From Desulfobacteraceae bacterium Eth-SRB2 (lineage in GTDB: Bacteria; Desulfobacterota; Desulfobacteria; Desulfobacterales; UBA11574), in the NCBI GenBank assembly GCA_004193595.1, contig RPGQ01000010.1:23501-87500 (forward strand): 64,000 nucleotides of DNA, given 5' to 3'. Numbering within the stretch: position 1 is the stretch's first letter; every line of letters begins with the position of its first letter. The notes under the pieces are model-generated. The model had not been told where the DNA came from, did not search any database, and worked only from the letters and a program-made list of their open reading frames with translations. The position numbers and the translations under genes were made by a program. Shown here in pieces: positions 1 to 45,039 of the stretch.

Positions 1-2793
1 TTCCCATGAAATTGGTTCTTTACCATTTGCCTTGGTTACTCTGAAAAATATTCCTATTATGTAATTACTATGTAATATTTGAAGGGTAAATTTTTTGTTG
101 CTTCTTTCAAAGGAATTTCGGAAGCGGCTTAAAAATACCTTGGCATAGTTCTCTAAGAATGGATCTTCTGTTTTTAAAGGCCGGAACAACTCTTTTTCAT
201 ATCCTTTATGCTTCATTATTAAGGGGATCGTAATATTCACCGCATAATCGACAAGAACCCTCTCCTGTTCATCCAGATCAAAACTGTTTAATATTTCATC
301 ATTCAGATTTTTTATGAGTTTTTTCTTTTTATCTTTCAGAGTTTGGGTGGGAGCTAATAGTTTTTGCTTTTCGTTGAACAGCTTTTTGCTGATTGATTCT
401 ATTTTCTCCACATATTGCGCTATGGCAGAGTTGTTTATGTATGGGAAGCTAAATTTTTCTTTGTCGTGAGTTTCTTCTCGTTCAATGCCGGCAGAGGATC
501 CAGTTTGTAATATATTGTAGGAAAATAAATTTGAATTCAACAAACCATTAATTATTTTAAGGTCATTAATCTTTTTTAAATCTAATAGTTTAATTCCGGT
601 CAGTGAGCTTTTAAAAACACAATTTTTATAAGATATTGCCGATTTTGACTCTAGTTTCTTATTTATACCGCCTGTTATTAATAAAGTGGGCGCATTAAAT
701 AAATTTTTATTTCTGGGTCTGTGAACATATTTTTGTGTCCATATATTATTTGGATTTCTATTGATGTAGAATTGTTCTATATCTTTCCTGGTATCTACAT
801 AAATTTGATTTAATAAATAAGAAACATCGTTTTGATCACCACCCCCAACCATAATTCCTTGTCCCACTAAGAATAAATTAGCATTATTTATAACATGCGA
901 AATAGTTTCGTTTTTTTCCTTCAATCTCTTTATTAAATTAAAATCCAGATAGCTCCCATAAACCAATGTTTTCCATAACCAGTCGTATTCTGTCAGCCGG
1001 GATTGAACAACTTGCTTATAGTCATTTCTTTGAAGTATAAAGATTTTAAAGAGGGAAAAGAACCGGTTTGGTTTTAGCGTTATATGGTCAATAATATTTT
1101 TATCGGTAGCCACGCCATGTGCATAACTGAAAAACAAACTGGCGGCAGGAGCAATTGACGGATCATTTGATTTGTCAAATACTTCCCTTCGGACAGGAGC
1201 AAGTTCAAAAACTTTATCAATAAAATAATTATGTAAAAAATATCTTCTGAATTTTTTTGCTTTGAGATTATACAATGTCTTACTGGTAACAATCAGGGCG
1301 CATTTGGTTTGTGCAGTACTGAAATCGCTCGTTCTCAACAAAAAGGCCTGCGCTATTTCATTATTGCTGATATTTATTTGAGGCTTATTATTGAATTTGC
1401 CTGATTCTCGCTTTTCCCTGTCTTCAATATATTGCGGAAATAAAGCGTTTTCATCGCTTCCGCGTTTCCATGGGGGATTACCGAGAATAAAATTGAATTT
1501 GATTTTCTTAATGATGTTATTGAAATCCGCATTAAGATCAAAAAAGTCATTGGTGAAAAAATTCTTGTTTATTAGTTTTGGGAATTTAAAATTTTCTATA
1601 TCCTTGGGGTCTCTAATATAGTCAAGCAAAGCAAGATAAACCGAGAATATGGCAACATTAATCGCATCGTCATCCTGATCGATTCCATAAATATTTTCTT
1701 CTGCTATCTTTTTTAAGACATTGGTCTTTGTGGAAGTTATTTCGTTCATTTCCTGATAACGTTCTATCATTCTCCTTAATGCCTGGACCAGAAAAATACC
1801 TGACCCGCAAGCGGGATCAAGCACCTTGCAGTTGTGGTCGTTTTGATTTGCTTTAAAATATTTCTCTACAGTCTCTTTTATTATGTAATCGACAAGAAAC
1901 ACAGGGGTATAGTATGCTCCTTTTTTAGCCTGATTTTCCTCTCCTATAAAGTGTTCATATACATTGCTGATAAACTCAACCGGAATTATTGAAAAATTAT
2001 AAATATCAAATAAAGACATTTGGCCGCTTGCTATTTTTGTTCCCCGCATAAGCTGGCTTAAAATATCGAATGCTTTTGGGGGAATAGTTTTTAAAAGAAA
2101 ATCTTTTAAAAGAAAAGCTTCTCCGTTAAAGTGGTTTTTTAGGTAATTCAAAAATTGAATGGTTTGATCTCTATTTTCTAAAACCTTACAGAATTCATCA
2201 TTCGTCCATGTCCGCTGTGTGCCGTCAAAATTGATTCTAACATTACGATCTATCAGGTAACGAATAAATATACATTTTCCGATAAGGGCATTAGATAAGG
2301 AACTATCAATATTGTATTCTTTAATGAGTAAATTTCTTGCATCTTTTATATTTTCCAGCAACTTGTAATCAACTCGATTCTGATATTTAAGTTTATTTTC
2401 ATAAGCCTGCCATGTCTTGCCCGTTACCAGTTCAAAATAAGAAAAAGCGTTGAGATTGCTTTCGTCTTCGAGTTTTTCAAGGGTTTTTTCTTTTTTCAGA
2501 TAGGAAAGTCCGTTGAAAATATCTACGGTATTTGGTTCGTTAACAATTACGACAGGAGACTCATTAAAGTTCCAGATATCTTTGAACAGTTTTTCTTTAT
2601 TTTGAGGGGAATTATAAAATAGCACTATTGGTTTTTTATCAATACAGAAAAAAGCCTCCGGTTTTAGTTTATCGTTAAGCAACCATTCTATCCGCGCAGG
2701 AAGCATTCCCTTCCAGGTATTTTCGGCAGTTATATACAGACCATCCCGATCCTTCATGTGAAGATGATCAAATATCTCTTCTAAATTATTCAT
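1..2793 (-). CDS. N6-adenine DNA methyltransferase (Eco57I/type IIG-like), 3' end outside window
   Basis: An open frame runs without a stop from the ATG at 2793 to the left edge, 931 codons. The ORF track misses it because the stop lies outside the window. The predicted role is SAM-dependent N6-adenine methylation of DNA. Visible motifs are GAYYTP before the SAM domain, motif I DPACGSG at about residue 326, and the catalytic NPPW at about residue 439. The long C-terminal half fits a target-recognition region. The roughly 300-residue N-terminal domain is of the kind seen in Eco57I-type or restriction-methylase fusions, but I cannot see a certain nuclease motif. It starts 2 bp after a type III Mod remnant and is probably part of a decayed restriction-modification island. 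PglX-like (BREX) or stand-alone methyltransferase identities remain possible. Confidence 0.85.
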   Translation of the reverse strand, partial: MNNLEEIFDHLHMKDRDGLYITAENTWKGMLPARIEWLLNDKLKPEAFFCIDKKPIVLFYNSPQNKEKLFKDIWNFNESPVVIVNEPNTVDIFNGLSYLKKEKTLEKLEDESNLNAFSYFELVTGKTWQAYENKLKYQNRVDYKLLENIKDARNLLIKEYNIDSSLSNALIGKCIFIRYLIDRNVRINFDGTQRTWTNDEFCKVLENRDQTIQFLNYLKNHFNGEAFLLKDFLLKTIPPKAFDILSQLMRGTKIASGQMSLFDIYNFSIIPVEFISNVYEHFIGEENQAKKGAYYTPVFLVDYIIKETVEKYFKANQNDHNCKVLDPACGSGIFLVQALRRMIERYQEMNEITSTKTNVLKKIAEENIYGIDQDDDAINVAIFSVYLALLDYIRDPKDIENFKFPKLINKNFFTNDFFDLNADFNNIIKKIKFNFILGNPPWKRGSDENALFPQYIEDREKRESGKFNNKPQINISNNEIAQAFLLRTSDFSTAQTKCALIVTSKTLYNLKAKKFRRYFLHNYFIDKVFELAPVRREVFDKSNDPSIAPAASLFFSYAHGVATDKNIIDHITLKPNRFFSLFKIFILQRNDYKQVVQSRLTEYDWLWKTLVYGSYLDFNLIKRLKEKNETISHVINNANLFLVGQGIMVGGGDQNDVSYLLNQIYVDTRKDIEQFYINRNPNNIWTQKYVHRPRNKNLFNAPTLLITGGINKKLESKSAISYKNCVFKSSLTGIKLLDLKKINDLKIINGLLNSNLFSYNILQTGSSAGIEREETHDKEKFSFPYINNSAIAQYVEKIESISKKLFNEKQKLLAPTQTLKDKKKKLIKNLNDEILNSFDLDEQERVLVDYAVNITIPLIMKHKGYEKELFRPLKTEDPFLENYAKVFLSRFRNSFERSNKKFTLQILHSNYIIGIFFRVTKANGKEPISWE

Positions 2794-2795
2794 AT

Positions 2796-3188
2796 TCACA
2801 CCACCTTAAATTCAATGCCGACATCTTTCATTTGCAGCAAAGTATTTGTTTTTAACTGGTCATTGTTTTTAAACAGTCTATCAAGGGTGATACACACCCG
2901 CGGTTTGTCTTCAAGGATAGAATCAACAATCTTTTCATCAATCTTTGAAAGAGCGATAATCATTTCGCCGTCATTTATCCTGTAATAATCATTGGTGTTT
3001 TCAATTGTTGAATTGATGTTGCGGCCTGACTTGAGCAACAGTTCAAATAATATGTTTTCTTCAACAGCATTCTTTTTTATAACGCGTCGGATACGTTCCT
3101 TGCCGATATCGGCAATGGTTTTGTATCCTGCTTTAAATCCAGCGACTTGCCATCCATTATAATTTCCCTTTCGTGCCCTTACGTGGTT
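2796..3188 (-). pseudogene. Type III restriction Mod (methyltransferase) C-terminal remnant
   Basis: The track gives an 80-residue ORF from a TTG, but the frame stays open upstream to a TGA at 3189-3191 without a good start codon. The upstream part reads TIADIGKERIRR and the downstream part reads NDQLKTNTLLQMK. Both are characteristic of the C-terminal region of type III Mod and related site-specific adenine methyltransferases. In intact proteins these segments are further apart and the catalytic domain precedes them. I therefore read this as a 5'-truncated and internally deleted remnant. It ends 2 bp before the start of the large methyltransferase gene. Confidence 0.6.
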
Positions 3189-3214
3189 TCAGCTCTTTCT
3201 CCAACCCCGTTACA

Positions 3215-3586
3215 TTATTTTCTCTTGTTTCCGTAAGTTGCTTCTTTTTCAGCTACTGCCGGCTGCCTTGAACGATTTTCCGGTCGGATCTCGACATGGA
3301 TCTTTGCACCGAGGACTTCTGCGACGCGGCGCAACATGCTTAGGGAATGTCCCTGGTAGGATGGTGATTCAAGGCGGCTGATCTGCTGTTGCGTTGTTCC
3401 CACTTTTCGGGCCAGTTCTTTTTGAGATAAACCTGCCTTTTTGCGCAGAGCAGTTAATTGCAAGGCCACATCCCAGGCTTCACCAGCCTCTGGGTAATAC
3501 TTTACAAAATCCTGATCTTTTATCTGCGTTTCAAGGTATCGATCAAAATAGGTCTTTCTTTTCGTACTTGATTTTTTTCCAGCCAT
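3215..3586 (-). CDS. XRE-family HTH antitoxin (HigA-like)
   Basis: This 123-residue protein has a Lys-rich N terminus and a lambda-repressor-type helix-turn-helix at about residues 45-100, with SQKELARKVGTTQQQISRLES as its core (quoted in part). Proteins of this size downstream of a RelE/HigB toxin neutralise the toxin and autorepress the operon. The start at 3586 lies inside the reading frame of the toxin remnant, in a different frame, which is a common arrangement for these modules. The toxin partner is broken here, so the antitoxin may be an orphan repressor. Confidence 0.8.
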   Translation of the reverse strand: MAGKKSSTKRKTYFDRYLETQIKDQDFVKYYPEAGEAWDVALQLTALRKKAGLSQKELARKVGTTQQQISRLESPSYQGHSLSMLRRVAEVLGAKIHVEIRPENRSRQPAVAEKEATYGNKRK

Positions 3587-3706
3587 TCACGTTTTCTTTC
3601 CAAGGCAACTTTACGATATATCGAGGGAATTTTTGTATCTTTGTTCCAAATTCCATGTAAAATGACGATTCGACGAGCCTTCATAAAATTCTATGGCAAA
3701 TTCCAT
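3520..3706 (-). pseudogene. RelE/HigB-like toxin, internally deleted
   Basis: The ATG at 3706 begins MEFAIEFYE, a typical start of a HigB/Gp49-like toxin. The C-terminal part continues in another frame as RIVILHGIWNKDTKIPS, then a basic helix, ending at 3520 inside the antitoxin gene. Intact family members are about 100-120 residues. Here the central part, which should carry most of the ribonuclease fold, is missing. The ORF track does not list it. The frame offset and the missing middle point to a deletion that killed the toxin while leaving the antitoxin intact. Confidence 0.6.
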
Positions 3707-3778
3707 TTAGTGTCAACATCAATATTAGTGTATAAATGGCAATAGTAAAGGTAACTGCTTTTTTATTAACTTGGCAAA

Positions 3779-3967
3779 TTAAAGTTCGATCAATTCTTTC
3801 GAATAAACCCTTTTGGGCAGTTTTGCCTTAGCCTGTTCAATGGTTTCATCAAGCAATTTTCGAATGTGAATAATTTTTTCTTTAGTATACATGTTATCTC
3901 TATATGCATTGCGCCCCATGGACATTCTAAATTCCAGGTTATCACAAAAGCCAATTAATTGGTCCAT
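3779..3967 (-). pseudogene. Possible Fic-family protein remnant
   Basis: This 62-residue ORF ends with TKEKIIHIRKLLDETIEQAK followed by LPKRVYSKELIEL. That resembles the segment of Fic-domain proteins between the Fic core and the C-terminal winged helix, where family members usually continue with a motif such as FxQPYxRI. Here a TAA follows directly. There is no HPFxxGNG Fic motif upstream. I consider it a fragment, with moderate uncertainty. It could also be an unrelated small protein. Confidence 0.35.
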
Positions 3968-4037: not shown

Positions 4038-5363
4038 TTAAGTTAGGGGAAAACGTGCTGCAAGATAGAGAGGATAATGATGAATGCTGTTTTTATGATC
4101 GATGTTCAAATTCTTAGCGCTCATAACCGTTCGATAGGGTGGGTTATACTTATCCGAAAAAACCTTTAGGCTTTTTGCCTGGGTCACCCAACCGGACTTT
4201 ACCTCCACAGGTAGGACCTTTCCATGTTTTTCCCTTAAAAATTCAACTTCAGCGGTTTTTTCTCTCCATGAATAAATCTGTGGGGTTCCTGCATACCTAA
4301 ACTCCTGGGCAATGAAGTTTTCGGCAAAATATCCTTTATAGGTTCCGTAATCATAATCGAGTATGGTTTTTGGTGGTAATTGGCTCATTGCGCCCAGCAT
4401 TCCCACATCAAAGAAACAGAGTTGAAAGCGGTTTTCCGCAGTGTATGCAGAAAAAGGGAATTCACCGCTGTTTACAATATAAATCTTGATAATAAGTCCT
4501 GCGGTATTCAGCCAATCAATTGGGCCGGCCAGCTTCGAATATGCTTTGATTCCCGGGACCACACCTTTGAATCTGAATTTTGGCGTTGAACCATCCTGCG
4601 CTCTGGCCAACTGGGCCGGAATATTTTTCCATATACGTTCGATATGCATGGCGTTCTGCTTGCCTGAATGCTTTGCAATATCAGCAAGATATGCATTTAT
4701 CAGATTTGTCTGCCGCTTCCTTACGGTCATAAGCGATAGAAATAAATCTACTTTGTAGTCCAAATAAGTCTGAATTATTTCCGGCAATCCCCCCACAACA
4801 AAATATATTTTCAATTGATCCCACAAAAGAGAATGGGCGGTTTCCGGAATAACGGTATCAAGGGCGCAATTCTGCAAAACATCAAGCAAACGAATTTCTC
4901 CTGACGCAGCCAGAAACTCCTCAAAACACATGGGAAACATTTCAATCTGGTCAACTTTGCCTACTGGAAAGGAACTGTTTCCAAGATGTATTCCCAACAA
5001 TGATCCTGCAGCACATATTGACAAACCGGCCAACTGCTCCTGGAAATATTTGAGGCTGGTCAAAGCCCTCGGACACGCCTGAATCTCATCAAAAATAATG
5101 AGATCCTTTTCCGTGTCTATGGACGATTCAACATAAAAGCTAAGATCCTGCAATATGCGCTTGGGTTTTAGGTCGTTGATAAAAATCCGACTCAACGCCT
5201 CGTCTTCTTCGAAATTCACATAATGAAATTTATCAAAAGCCTTTCGGCCAAACCGCTTTAAAATATATGTTTTACCGACCTGACGGGTGCCCTTTAAAAT
5301 AAGCGGCTTTCGATTTTTTCTGTTTTTCCATTCCTCAAGCTTTTGATAAATTTTTCTTTTCAT
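4038..5363 (-). CDS. AAA+ ATPase with DUF4143 domain
   Basis: The product has an N-terminal P-loop ATPase domain with Walker A GTRQVGKT near residue 30 and a Walker B-like LIIFDEIQ, followed by a C-terminal DUF4143 domain with the nuclease-like VEVKSG motif. Such proteins are common in genomic islands, and their substrate is unknown. The ORF track starts at a GTG at 5393, but that codon lies inside repeat A1. The ATG at 5363 (MKRKIYQK) lies outside the repeat and is the better start, giving about 441 residues. Confidence 0.85.
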   Translation of the reverse strand: MKRKIYQKLEEWKNRKNRKPLILKGTRQVGKTYILKRFGRKAFDKFHYVNFEEDEALSRIFINDLKPKRILQDLSFYVESSIDTEKDLIIFDEIQACPRALTSLKYFQEQLAGLSICAAGSLLGIHLGNSSFPVGKVDQIEMFPMCFEEFLAASGEIRLLDVLQNCALDTVIPETAHSLLWDQLKIYFVVGGLPEIIQTYLDYKVDLFLSLMTVRKRQTNLINAYLADIAKHSGKQNAMHIERIWKNIPAQLARAQDGSTPKFRFKGVVPGIKAYSKLAGPIDWLNTAGLIIKIYIVNSGEFPFSAYTAENRFQLCFFDVGMLGAMSQLPPKTILDYDYGTYKGYFAENFIAQEFRYAGTPQIYSWREKTAEVEFLREKHGKVLPVEVKSGWVTQAKSLKVFSDKYNPPYRTVMSAKNLNIDHKNSIHHYPLYLAARFPLT

Positions 5364-22988: not shown

Positions 22989-23070
22989 CCAAGCGGAGAT
23001 CCCGCATAGCGGGGCTGCGGGGAGCTTCATTTTTTTCGCGACCCCTTACGAATTTATCAAACTTAAGTCG

Positions 23071-23613
23071 GGTGATCAAGACTGTTGTTTGCTAAGATTG
23101 CTATGGCTATTTGGTTTCAGGTGTCAGGTGTCAGGTGTCAGGAAACATGTTCAGTAGTAATGGGCCAGCCCTGAGGGAACGATTCATTTTTTACGCCATA
23201 CACTGCCGTTTTCTCAGCTAACTGCCAGCGGCGTTCTCGCTCTGGGACTTTCCGTTCCAATGTTTTCTCTAATCCATTCAACATACGAATGCATTCTTTG
23301 TAACGACCCCGAATTTCTAAATACACCTTTTCCGTGATGTACCCTTTGAGTTTCGCCATGAACAGATGGTGAATGGTCTCAGCTGCTTCGCCCCTGGCGC
23401 GATTCACGCCTTCAATTTTGTTACGGATATAGCGGATCATCATTTTTCTCGGCGAGTTGTGCAGGATCGCTGTTTGAGGAGCGCCTGGAATTGGTCACCT
23501 CGTTTCCCCCTTAATCCTTAACCCTGACACCTGAAACCTAAAAAAAAAGCTTTGGAGCCACGGTTTGTCAATAGAAAGGCATCAGCGTTTACCAACGGTC
23601 TTGATTTCCACCC
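23071..23613. mobile_element. Element C1: heptamer-array element carrying a four-helix-bundle gene remnant
   Basis: The 543-bp element has imperfect inverted ends (GGTGATCAAGACTGTTG and GGGTGGAAATCAAGACCG), a left array of GGTGTCA heptamers, a coding remnant and a right array of TGACACC heptamers. It is flanked by ACTTAAGTCG (23061-23070) and AGTTAAGTCG (23614-23623), a 9/10 target duplication that overlaps the stop codon of the neighbouring J-domain gene. C2 is a shorter deletion derivative of the same element. Confidence 0.8.
23138..23495 (-). pseudogene. Four-helix-bundle (23S rRNA intervening-sequence type) protein, frameshifted
   Basis: The 101-residue track ORF (from 23443) carries RARGEAAETIHHLFMAKLKG followed by a helix ending MLNGLEKTL. 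These match the C-terminal two helices of the four-helix-bundle family first known from 23S rRNA intervening sequences. Upstream, in another frame, SRRSSNSDPAQLAEK matches the family's RRSSxSIPANIAEG motif. Intact members are about 115-125 residues in one frame. I read it as a frameshifted, truncated gene. It is the only coding cargo in the heptamer elements of this window. Confidence 0.6.
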
Positions 23614-30594: not shown

Positions 30595-30644
30595 AATCGT
30601 GTCCATCCATAAATCTATATTGGACACTAACCCGGTAGTATACC

Positions 30645-30831
30645 GGGGTGATTAAAATTGCCCATAATATGGCTTTAAAAAATATCCCATATTTATTCCT
30701 TCCCGTATGCTTGGTGTCAGGTTTCAGGTGCCAGCGCCTCTGTTCATCATTCCTGACACCTGAAACCTTAAGATATGGAACAAAAATGGGATTAAAATTC
30801 CATCTGTATACACGGCGATTTTCACCACCCC
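30645..30831. repeat. Repeat G1: GTGTCAG heptamer element
   Basis: This 187-bp element begins GGGGTGATTAAAATTGCC and ends with the inverse of GGGGTGGTGAAAATCGCC. Few heptamers flank a core of about 25 bp. It is flanked by GGTAGTATACC and AGTAGTATACC, a 10/11 duplication. The second copy, G2, is 21 bp longer, exactly three heptamers. Confidence 0.85.
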
Positions 30832-30843
30832 AGTAGTATACCA

Positions 30844-35465: not shown

Positions 35466-35757
35466 AGATATTGAAATCAAGACCGTTGGTAAACGCTGAT
35501 GCCTTTCTATTGACAAACCGTGGCTCCGAAGCTTTTTTTAGGTGTCCGGTGTCCGGTGTCAGGTGTCAGGTGTCAGGTTTCAGGTGCCATCGCCTCTGTT
35601 CATCATTCCTGACACTTGACACCTAAAGATATGGAACAAAAATGGGATTAAAATTTCATCTATATACACGGCGATTTTCACCACCCCACCTGACACCTGA
35701 CACCGGACACCAAATAGCCATAGCAATCTTAGCAAACAACAGTCTTGATTTAAACCC
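35466..35757. repeat. Repeat C3: inverted C-family element with an embedded G half-element
   Basis: Read in reverse, the outer segments match the C family: GTTTGTCAATAGA plus GTTTACCAACGGTCTTGAT on one side and AACAGTCTTGATTTAAACCC on the other. Between them lies only the right half of a G element (GGAACAAAAATGGGATTAAA...CACCACCCC), joined through heptamer arrays. No target duplication is visible. It looks like a recombinant of two families through shared GTGTCAG arrays. Confidence 0.65.
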
Positions 35758-35828
35758 ATGCTTCGCAGAAGCCACATTTATAAGCTCTAATAAATCCTTA
35801 TCTTCAGAGACTGTTCGGAGGCAGAACC

Positions 35829-42696: not shown

Positions 42697-42722
42697 ATCC
42701 CATTCGGATGCAGAAACGACAT

Positions 42723-42930
42723 GGGGTGATTAAAATTGCCCATAATATGGCTTTAAAAAATATCCCATATTTATTCCTTCCCGTATGCCTGGTGTCAGGT
42801 TTCAGGTTTCAGGTGCCAGCGCCTCTGTTCATCATTCCTGACACCTGACACCTGACACCTGAAACCTTAAGATATGGAACAAAAATGGGATTAAAATTCC
42901 ATCTGTATACACGGCGATTTTCACCACCCC
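42723..42930. repeat. Repeat G2: GTGTCAG heptamer element with exact TSD
   Basis: The 208-bp element is flanked by AGAAACGACAT on both sides (42712-42722 and 42931-42941), an exact 11-bp duplication. It matches G1 with three extra heptamers, one in the left and two in the right array. The ends are GGGGTGATTAAAATTGCC and the inverse GGGGTGGTGAAAATCGCC. Confidence 0.92.
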
Positions 42931-43104
42931 AGAAACGACATAAGCATAGAAGATATATTCCATATAACAATTCCATAGCGTGGATGGACACTATCTAGTG
43001 AGGAAAGAATCGGGAATCAGGTCGTCAGAACAAAAAGTGTTATGCAGTGGAAGTCAAATCAATGTAAAGCACTGACTTTAATAGGGGGTCATCAAAAATC
43101 TAAT

Positions 43105-44314: not shown

Positions 44315-44746
44315 TTCCGGGCTCCTCCTTTGCTTTTAAGTTTAACCTAAATCGAGCTATTTTTTACTCCATTTGCACCGATCTCCCCGCTGACGGGGGA
44401 TCTTGGACTTGCGCATCAAGGATCCGCGAAAAATCTCGACATATCCATCCCGATGTTTTTTCGGGACGTTTTCGTAAACCCTTATGCATCAAGATCTCAG
44501 CACATCTCTTCCCAAAAAATTCCTCAACGCAGATTTAATAATCAACCCTCTCTTTCAACTCTTTTCCACATTTATAAAACGAAAGTTTCTTCGAGTTGCT
44601 TTGTAGCTTCTGAAATTTGAATTAATTCAGTTAAATACATCAAAAAAAAAGAACTGTCAAGAATTCTGTAGGGTTGAAGGATTATGGCATTAAAGGAATG
44701 GAGTCAGACCGTTTGGAGGTCATTCCAAACTGTTCATACTTCCTTG
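44315..44746. other. Intergenic gap upstream of C2
   Basis: About 430 bp with no gene I can support. The ORFs at 44179 and 44674 are shadows. I see nothing else in it. Confidence 0.35.
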
Positions 44747-45039
44747 GATGTAAATCAAAACTGTTGTTTGCTAAGATTGCCATGGCTATTTGGTTTCAGG
44801 TGTCAGGTGTCAGGTGTCAGGAGGCATGGAGCCCTGAGGGAACGATTCATCTCCATTTAACAAATGTGTAACCGACACAACTTTTTATAGACCTCAAGAT
44901 CCTCCACGTCCATATAATTGCTATTGGTCACCTGGTTTCCCCCTTAACCCTGACACCTGACACCTAAAAAAAGGGCTTCGGAGCCACGGTTTGTCAATAG
45001 ACAAGGATCAGCGTTTACCAACGGCTTTGATTTACACCC
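44747..45039. mobile_element. Element C2: deletion derivative of C1 with exact 10-bp TSD
   Basis: The 293-bp element shares both ends with C1, the array GGTTTCAGGTGTCAGGTG and the right array, but lacks most of the coding part. It still has GCCCTGAGGGAACGATTCAT and a TTGGTCACC stretch in common with C1. The flanks TACTTCCTTG at 44737-44746 and 45040-45049 are identical. Confidence 0.9.

Follow-up and report, generated by a model that had tools for sequence, protein, structure and literature searches.

A multi-copy MITE with fixed ends and 9-bp target duplications in Desulfobacteraceae bacterium Eth-SRB2

Background

The MITE Chunjie of Geobacter uraniireducens, as outlined in a review (PMC10969869), is 178–235 bp long and is present in 38 full-length and 57 partial copies. 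BrickBuilt of Porphyromonas gingivalis (PMC4596501) is a MITE whose minisatellite interior is built of 23-bp units, and MITEAba12 (with ISAba12; PMC6382973) is one with 9-bp target duplications, for which a DDE transposase working in trans has been held responsible. Tn5/IS50 (IS4 family) also makes 9-bp duplications, with a published target preference of A-GNTYWRANC-T (PMC8224930, PMC11481867).

We have analyzed a 64,000-nucleotide stretch of contig RPGQ01000010.1 of Desulfobacteraceae bacterium Eth-SRB2 (called the window below), which carries copies of an element that is of an ordinary kind, a MITE, and belongs to a new family. Within what the review outlines, it resembles Chunjie in its size and copy number, and both vary in length, lie between genes and have terminal inverted repeats, direct repeats and many partial copies; this is a likeness by description that carries no claim of sequence relation. 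Its interior is a minisatellite, BrickBuilt-like in kind, but the units are 7 bp rather than 23 bp and the host phylum differs. Its 9-bp target duplications are like those of MITEAba12, but its ends (TGGGGTG-T-AAAAT-GCC) differ from the GGCTTTGTTGCACAAA-like ends of the ISAba12 group. The likeness to Tn5/IS50 extends to target choice only; no Tn5-type transposase turned up in the host, nor in any other genome in which we saw the element. The design of the ends is common to several taxonomic families of one order. These results replace a guess made from two copies (an 11-bp duplication) with a measured signature of fixed ends, a 9-bp duplication, a target consensus and empty sites; a search for the parent transposase requires such a signature.

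Anatomy and dispersal of the element

Copies G1 and G2 and the right half-copy G3 lie in the window (Table 1), which also contains a 6S RNA (RF00013, 61934–62114 on the + strand, 99.9 bits). The terminal repeats carry two conserved blocks, TGGGGTG-T-AAAAT (outer) and ATCCCATTTTTGTTCC (inner), that are common to several element families; the two ends of G2 are inverted repeats alike at 16 of 19 outer bases. The element has a strong hairpin (DNA fold z = -5.1). The element is short and has no transposase gene, its longest open reading frame being 42 codons. Most copies are 176–210 bp long, with a shortest of 140 bp and long forms of up to about 435 bp, and full copies differ mainly in 7-bp steps (187, 194, 201 and 208 bp, terminal T and A excluded); the 7-bp repeats of the apex are probably the cause of these steps and of the many half-copies. 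The long forms (about 396–435 bp) are found in the window's own genome (G000) and in G006 and G013, and three of the four have an extra interior in common; CTCTGT repeats at the edges of this interior suggest that the short form arose from the long one by deletion.

Table 1. Positions of the element copies, their parts and their flanking duplications in the window
Feature	Position	Strand	Basis
G2, 210-bp MITE copy, T-GGGGTGATTAAAATTG...CGATTTTCACCACCCC-A	42722..42931	+	boundaries from 36 copies; same sequence elsewhere in G000
G2 left ~60-bp imperfect terminal inverted repeat; outer TGGGGTGATTAAAATTGCC, inner ATCCCATATTTATTCC	42722..42787	+	
G2 apex, inverted arrays of 7-bp units (TGTCAGG/TTTCAGG ... 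CCTGACA/CCTGAAA)	42790..42866	+	
G2 right terminal inverted repeat; outer block TGGGGTGGTGAAAATCGCC, inner block ATCCCATTTTTGTTCC	42866..42931	-	
Left 9-bp target-site duplication of G2, GAAACGACA	42713..42721	+	copy comparison
Right 9-bp target-site duplication of G2, GAAACGACA	42932..42940	+	copy comparison
G1, 189-bp copy; left terminal T is C	30644..30832	+	
Left 9-bp duplication of G1, GTAGTATAC	30635..30643	+	copy comparison
Right 9-bp duplication of G1, GTAGTATAC	30833..30841	+	copy comparison
G3, right half-copy inside heptad array, left end lost	35569..35688	+	

The 5.26-Mb genome G000 contains about 35–40 dispersed copies, and a search of it for the ends gave 79 matches against 6 for a control pattern. 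The congener G006 has many copies, and G013 and G019, which belong to other genera of the family, have single or few. The copies are mainly intergenic; long open frames running across the joined sites are rare. Full copies in G000 have a mean identity of 97% to their consensus, from which we take the amplification to be fairly recent. The right end of the same MITE is also present at positions 4053–4176 of L194, a short contig assigned to the bin Candidatus Fermentibacteria B22_G4, and this is either contamination or transfer.

Target duplications and the putative transposase

Left and right flanks were compared in 36 distinct copies that have both ends, taken from G000 and its relatives (L228 belongs to a related family in G116), with the element ends set at T-GGGG and CCCC-A. 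The 9-bp flanks are identical in 19 copies and differ at one position in 7; two mismatches were found in 4 (and three in one), and in the 6 copies with at least three the duplication is lost, decayed or never present. At most one mismatch is thus seen in 26 of the 36 true pairs, as against 6 of 2000 pairs drawn from different copies. The first-pass annotation had proposed from G2 and G1 a transposition-like mechanism with a duplication common to independent copies, and had allowed that many further copies might lack one; it is instead a duplication of constant length that most of them keep. We consider it very likely that G2 is one of about 40 copies of a protein-less MITE that has spread by transposition with a 9-bp target duplication.

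In the mechanism that we propose, a DDE-type transposase given in trans would recognize the two-block terminal repeats of ~60 bp and insert the element, bounded by T and A, at a staggered cut of 9 bp in a roughly palindromic target; gap repair would then leave the 9-bp direct repeat, and recombination among the apex heptads would account for both the half-copies and the length steps of 7 bp. The target, pooled over both strands of 30 copies, is (A/G)-GNTNNNANC-(T/C), written out as (A/G)-G N T N N N A N C-(T/C); two bases beyond it, W is preferred. Both this consensus and the 9-bp length match those of Tn5, and the mobilizing enzyme might be a close relative of the Tn5/IS50 transposase (IS4 family). 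The target likeness is one of behaviour only, and we regard such an enzyme as somewhat unlikely: other IS such as the ISAba12 group also make 9-bp duplications (PMC6382973), and the Tn5-type domain PF14706 has no match in G000 or in any of the listed relatives that carry the element. PF14706 is found in 10 of 389 genomes of the order, at loci that do not have TGGGGTG ends. Such ends are also absent from the PF01609 (DDE_Tnp_1) transposases looked at, of which there are 12 matches in G000 and another 18 in relatives (five of the six searched), and from the single UPF0236 gene (PF06782). A Tn5/IS4-like parent is accordingly offered as a lead and not as a finding.

Within the window Pfam matches were listed for 44 open reading frames out of the longest 47 that do not overlap, and no transposase is present among the matches listed (two of the lists giving the best 25 of 57 and the best 25 of 40 families), in agreement with the first-pass annotation. 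That annotation had also pointed to a transposase family with GGGGTG ends that gives 10–11 bp duplications; none of the G000 transposases looked at has matching ends, and since the duplication is 9 bp a hunt for such a family is misdirected. A GTDB-wide scan for the ends, in which near relatives of the window genome may be missing, yielded no autonomous element but only MITE copies, contig L211 with its related MITE, and what appear to be chance matches; the end pattern gave no match in viral contigs, and a plasmid collection yielded no meaningful match. The transposase search comprised PF01609, PF14706, PF06782 and the GTDB scan, in draft genomes, whose assemblies often collapse or lose IS copies.

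Empty sites, half-copies and heptad arrays

Two kinds of empty site bear on the first-pass suggestion that a relative might retain the uninterrupted target. The copy in L003 is inserted in a dispersed repeat, and uninterrupted members of that repeat, three of which are in the window (near 23069–23198, 35696–35757 and 44746–44850), carry one AGCAAACAAC; by sequence comparison this constitutes clear evidence for a paralogous empty site. The gene upstream of G2 encodes a LUD-domain protein, is conserved in the genus and is about 90% identical in the congener G003, where the intergenic sequence runs past the G2 insertion point without the element and has one diverged target copy, AGAATCGAGA. The downstream sequence is recognizable there, with an alignment score attained by 12 of 2000 shuffles, and we take G003 as moderate evidence for an orthologous empty site of G2.

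Heptad arrays adjoin 7 of the 10 half-copies, G3 among them, as against 4 of 45 full-copy ends (Fisher p = 0.00015), which is consistent with half-copies having arisen by deletion from a heptad in the flanking DNA to one within the element. This apparent recombination of apex heptads, the strong hairpin and the intergenic position of most copies would also fit a hairpin repeat (REP-, sRNA- or terminator-like) that was spread by recombination or gene conversion and whose flanking repeats are incidental. On the other hand, recombination does not make exact 9-bp target duplications (here in 26 of 36 copies), fixed ends and a target consensus, nor does it explain a paralogous empty site with a single target copy, and we judge such an origin very improbable in comparison with transposition of a MITE.

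Tandem TGTCAGG/TTTCAGG units (reverse complement CCTGACA/CCTGAAA) are present in the window at 23075–23613, 35473–35758 and 44745–45039. Heptads occur across the order, where 65 of 291 genomes match a heptad-containing query, chiefly at the 7-bp units; they border several unrelated dispersed repeats and also lie within two MITE families.

Element boundaries and related MITEs in the order

The sequence AGAAACGACAT is present at 42712–42722 and again at 42931–42941, identical on both sides of G2, and is absent from the rest of the window even when one mismatch is allowed; the flanks of G1 (GGTAGTATACC and AGTAGTATACC) are alike at 10 of 11 positions. Both of these first-pass observations hold, but the duplication length of 11 bp read from them does not, as the bordering T and A belong to the element. 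Left and right flanks agree at each position of the 9-bp core in 26–30 of 30 copies, and at the next position outward on each side the agreement falls to 18 and 19 of 30. The base that borders the element is A on the right in 29 of 30 copies and T on the left in 27 of 30, even where the target had neither; at outer positions that differ between the two sides, the base adjoining the element is without exception A on the right, and on the left it is T with two exceptions, so the T and A are element bases. The element is T-GGGGTG…CACCCC-A, and in G2 it is flanked by GAAACGACA. The apparent 11 bp of G2 come from a target that by chance was A-GAAACGACA-T; an apparent 11-bp repeat is seen in only 6 of the 26 well-preserved copies (G2 included), and such coincidences are common since the target preference has this shape. 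An 11-bp (or variable 10–11 bp) duplication, due to a transposase from a different class, might be argued from the exact matches in G2 and five further well-preserved copies, but is hardly credible in view of this outer disagreement, where the differing cases are nearly all A/T, and of families with other cores in other genomes that have identical T..A ends and 9-bp repeats.

These families are found in G116, G151 and G175, which belong to other taxonomic families of the same order; their elements end in the same way and have exact duplications of 9 bp (CATGTCACC, CCCGTATTC, CCCCGCATC, GGTATGCGC, GCTCCAAAC, GTCCCAATC and GGTTGCAGG), an independent confirmation of both the ends and the 9-bp length. 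The smallest related MITE, of 124 bp, amounts to about two ~60-bp terminal repeats placed back to back. The apex of the G151 copies L264, L267 and L270 is a GGGTGCCACGGGC..GCCCGTGGCACCC hairpin in place of heptads, which suggests that the MITE apex is prone to take up other short palindromic repeats. A broader scheme, which we put forward as speculative and rather doubtful, would have a MITE superfamily extending across several families of one order and mobilized by an unrecognized transposase with Tn5-like target choice; the apex would time and again gain short repeats, either palindromic or in tandem (GGGTGCCACGGGC hairpins, TGTCAGG heptads), and heptads would be both cargo and insertion target and would yield truncated copies by recombination.

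Contig L211 (Desulfobacteraceae CSSed162cmB_348) has at 1493–3834 a related MITE end pair that lies between inverted target copies (gactatggg / cccatagcc), which might be an outcome of intramolecular adjacent inversion. The 2338-bp end spacing found in L211 and in C283 of G116, apparently one contig, was rejected as an IS because only ordinary genes lie inside, as were the single ends in L300 and L301, which have no partner end and adjoin ordinary genes. The look-alike TGGGGTGGTTAAAATTTTC is a different repeat in which the string is not terminal. A separate family-wide repeat, ...CCGTAGGTCCGGCAGATCGTACTGGGGTGGTTAAAATTTTCGCC..TTGGTCTTGAACAAAATTGAACGTTTTTCAAAGGTCTC, which is not the MITE, is present in L114 (at 5781), L115, L116, L122, L143, L154, L159 and L160; about 13 matches to the middle of this repeat are present in G014.
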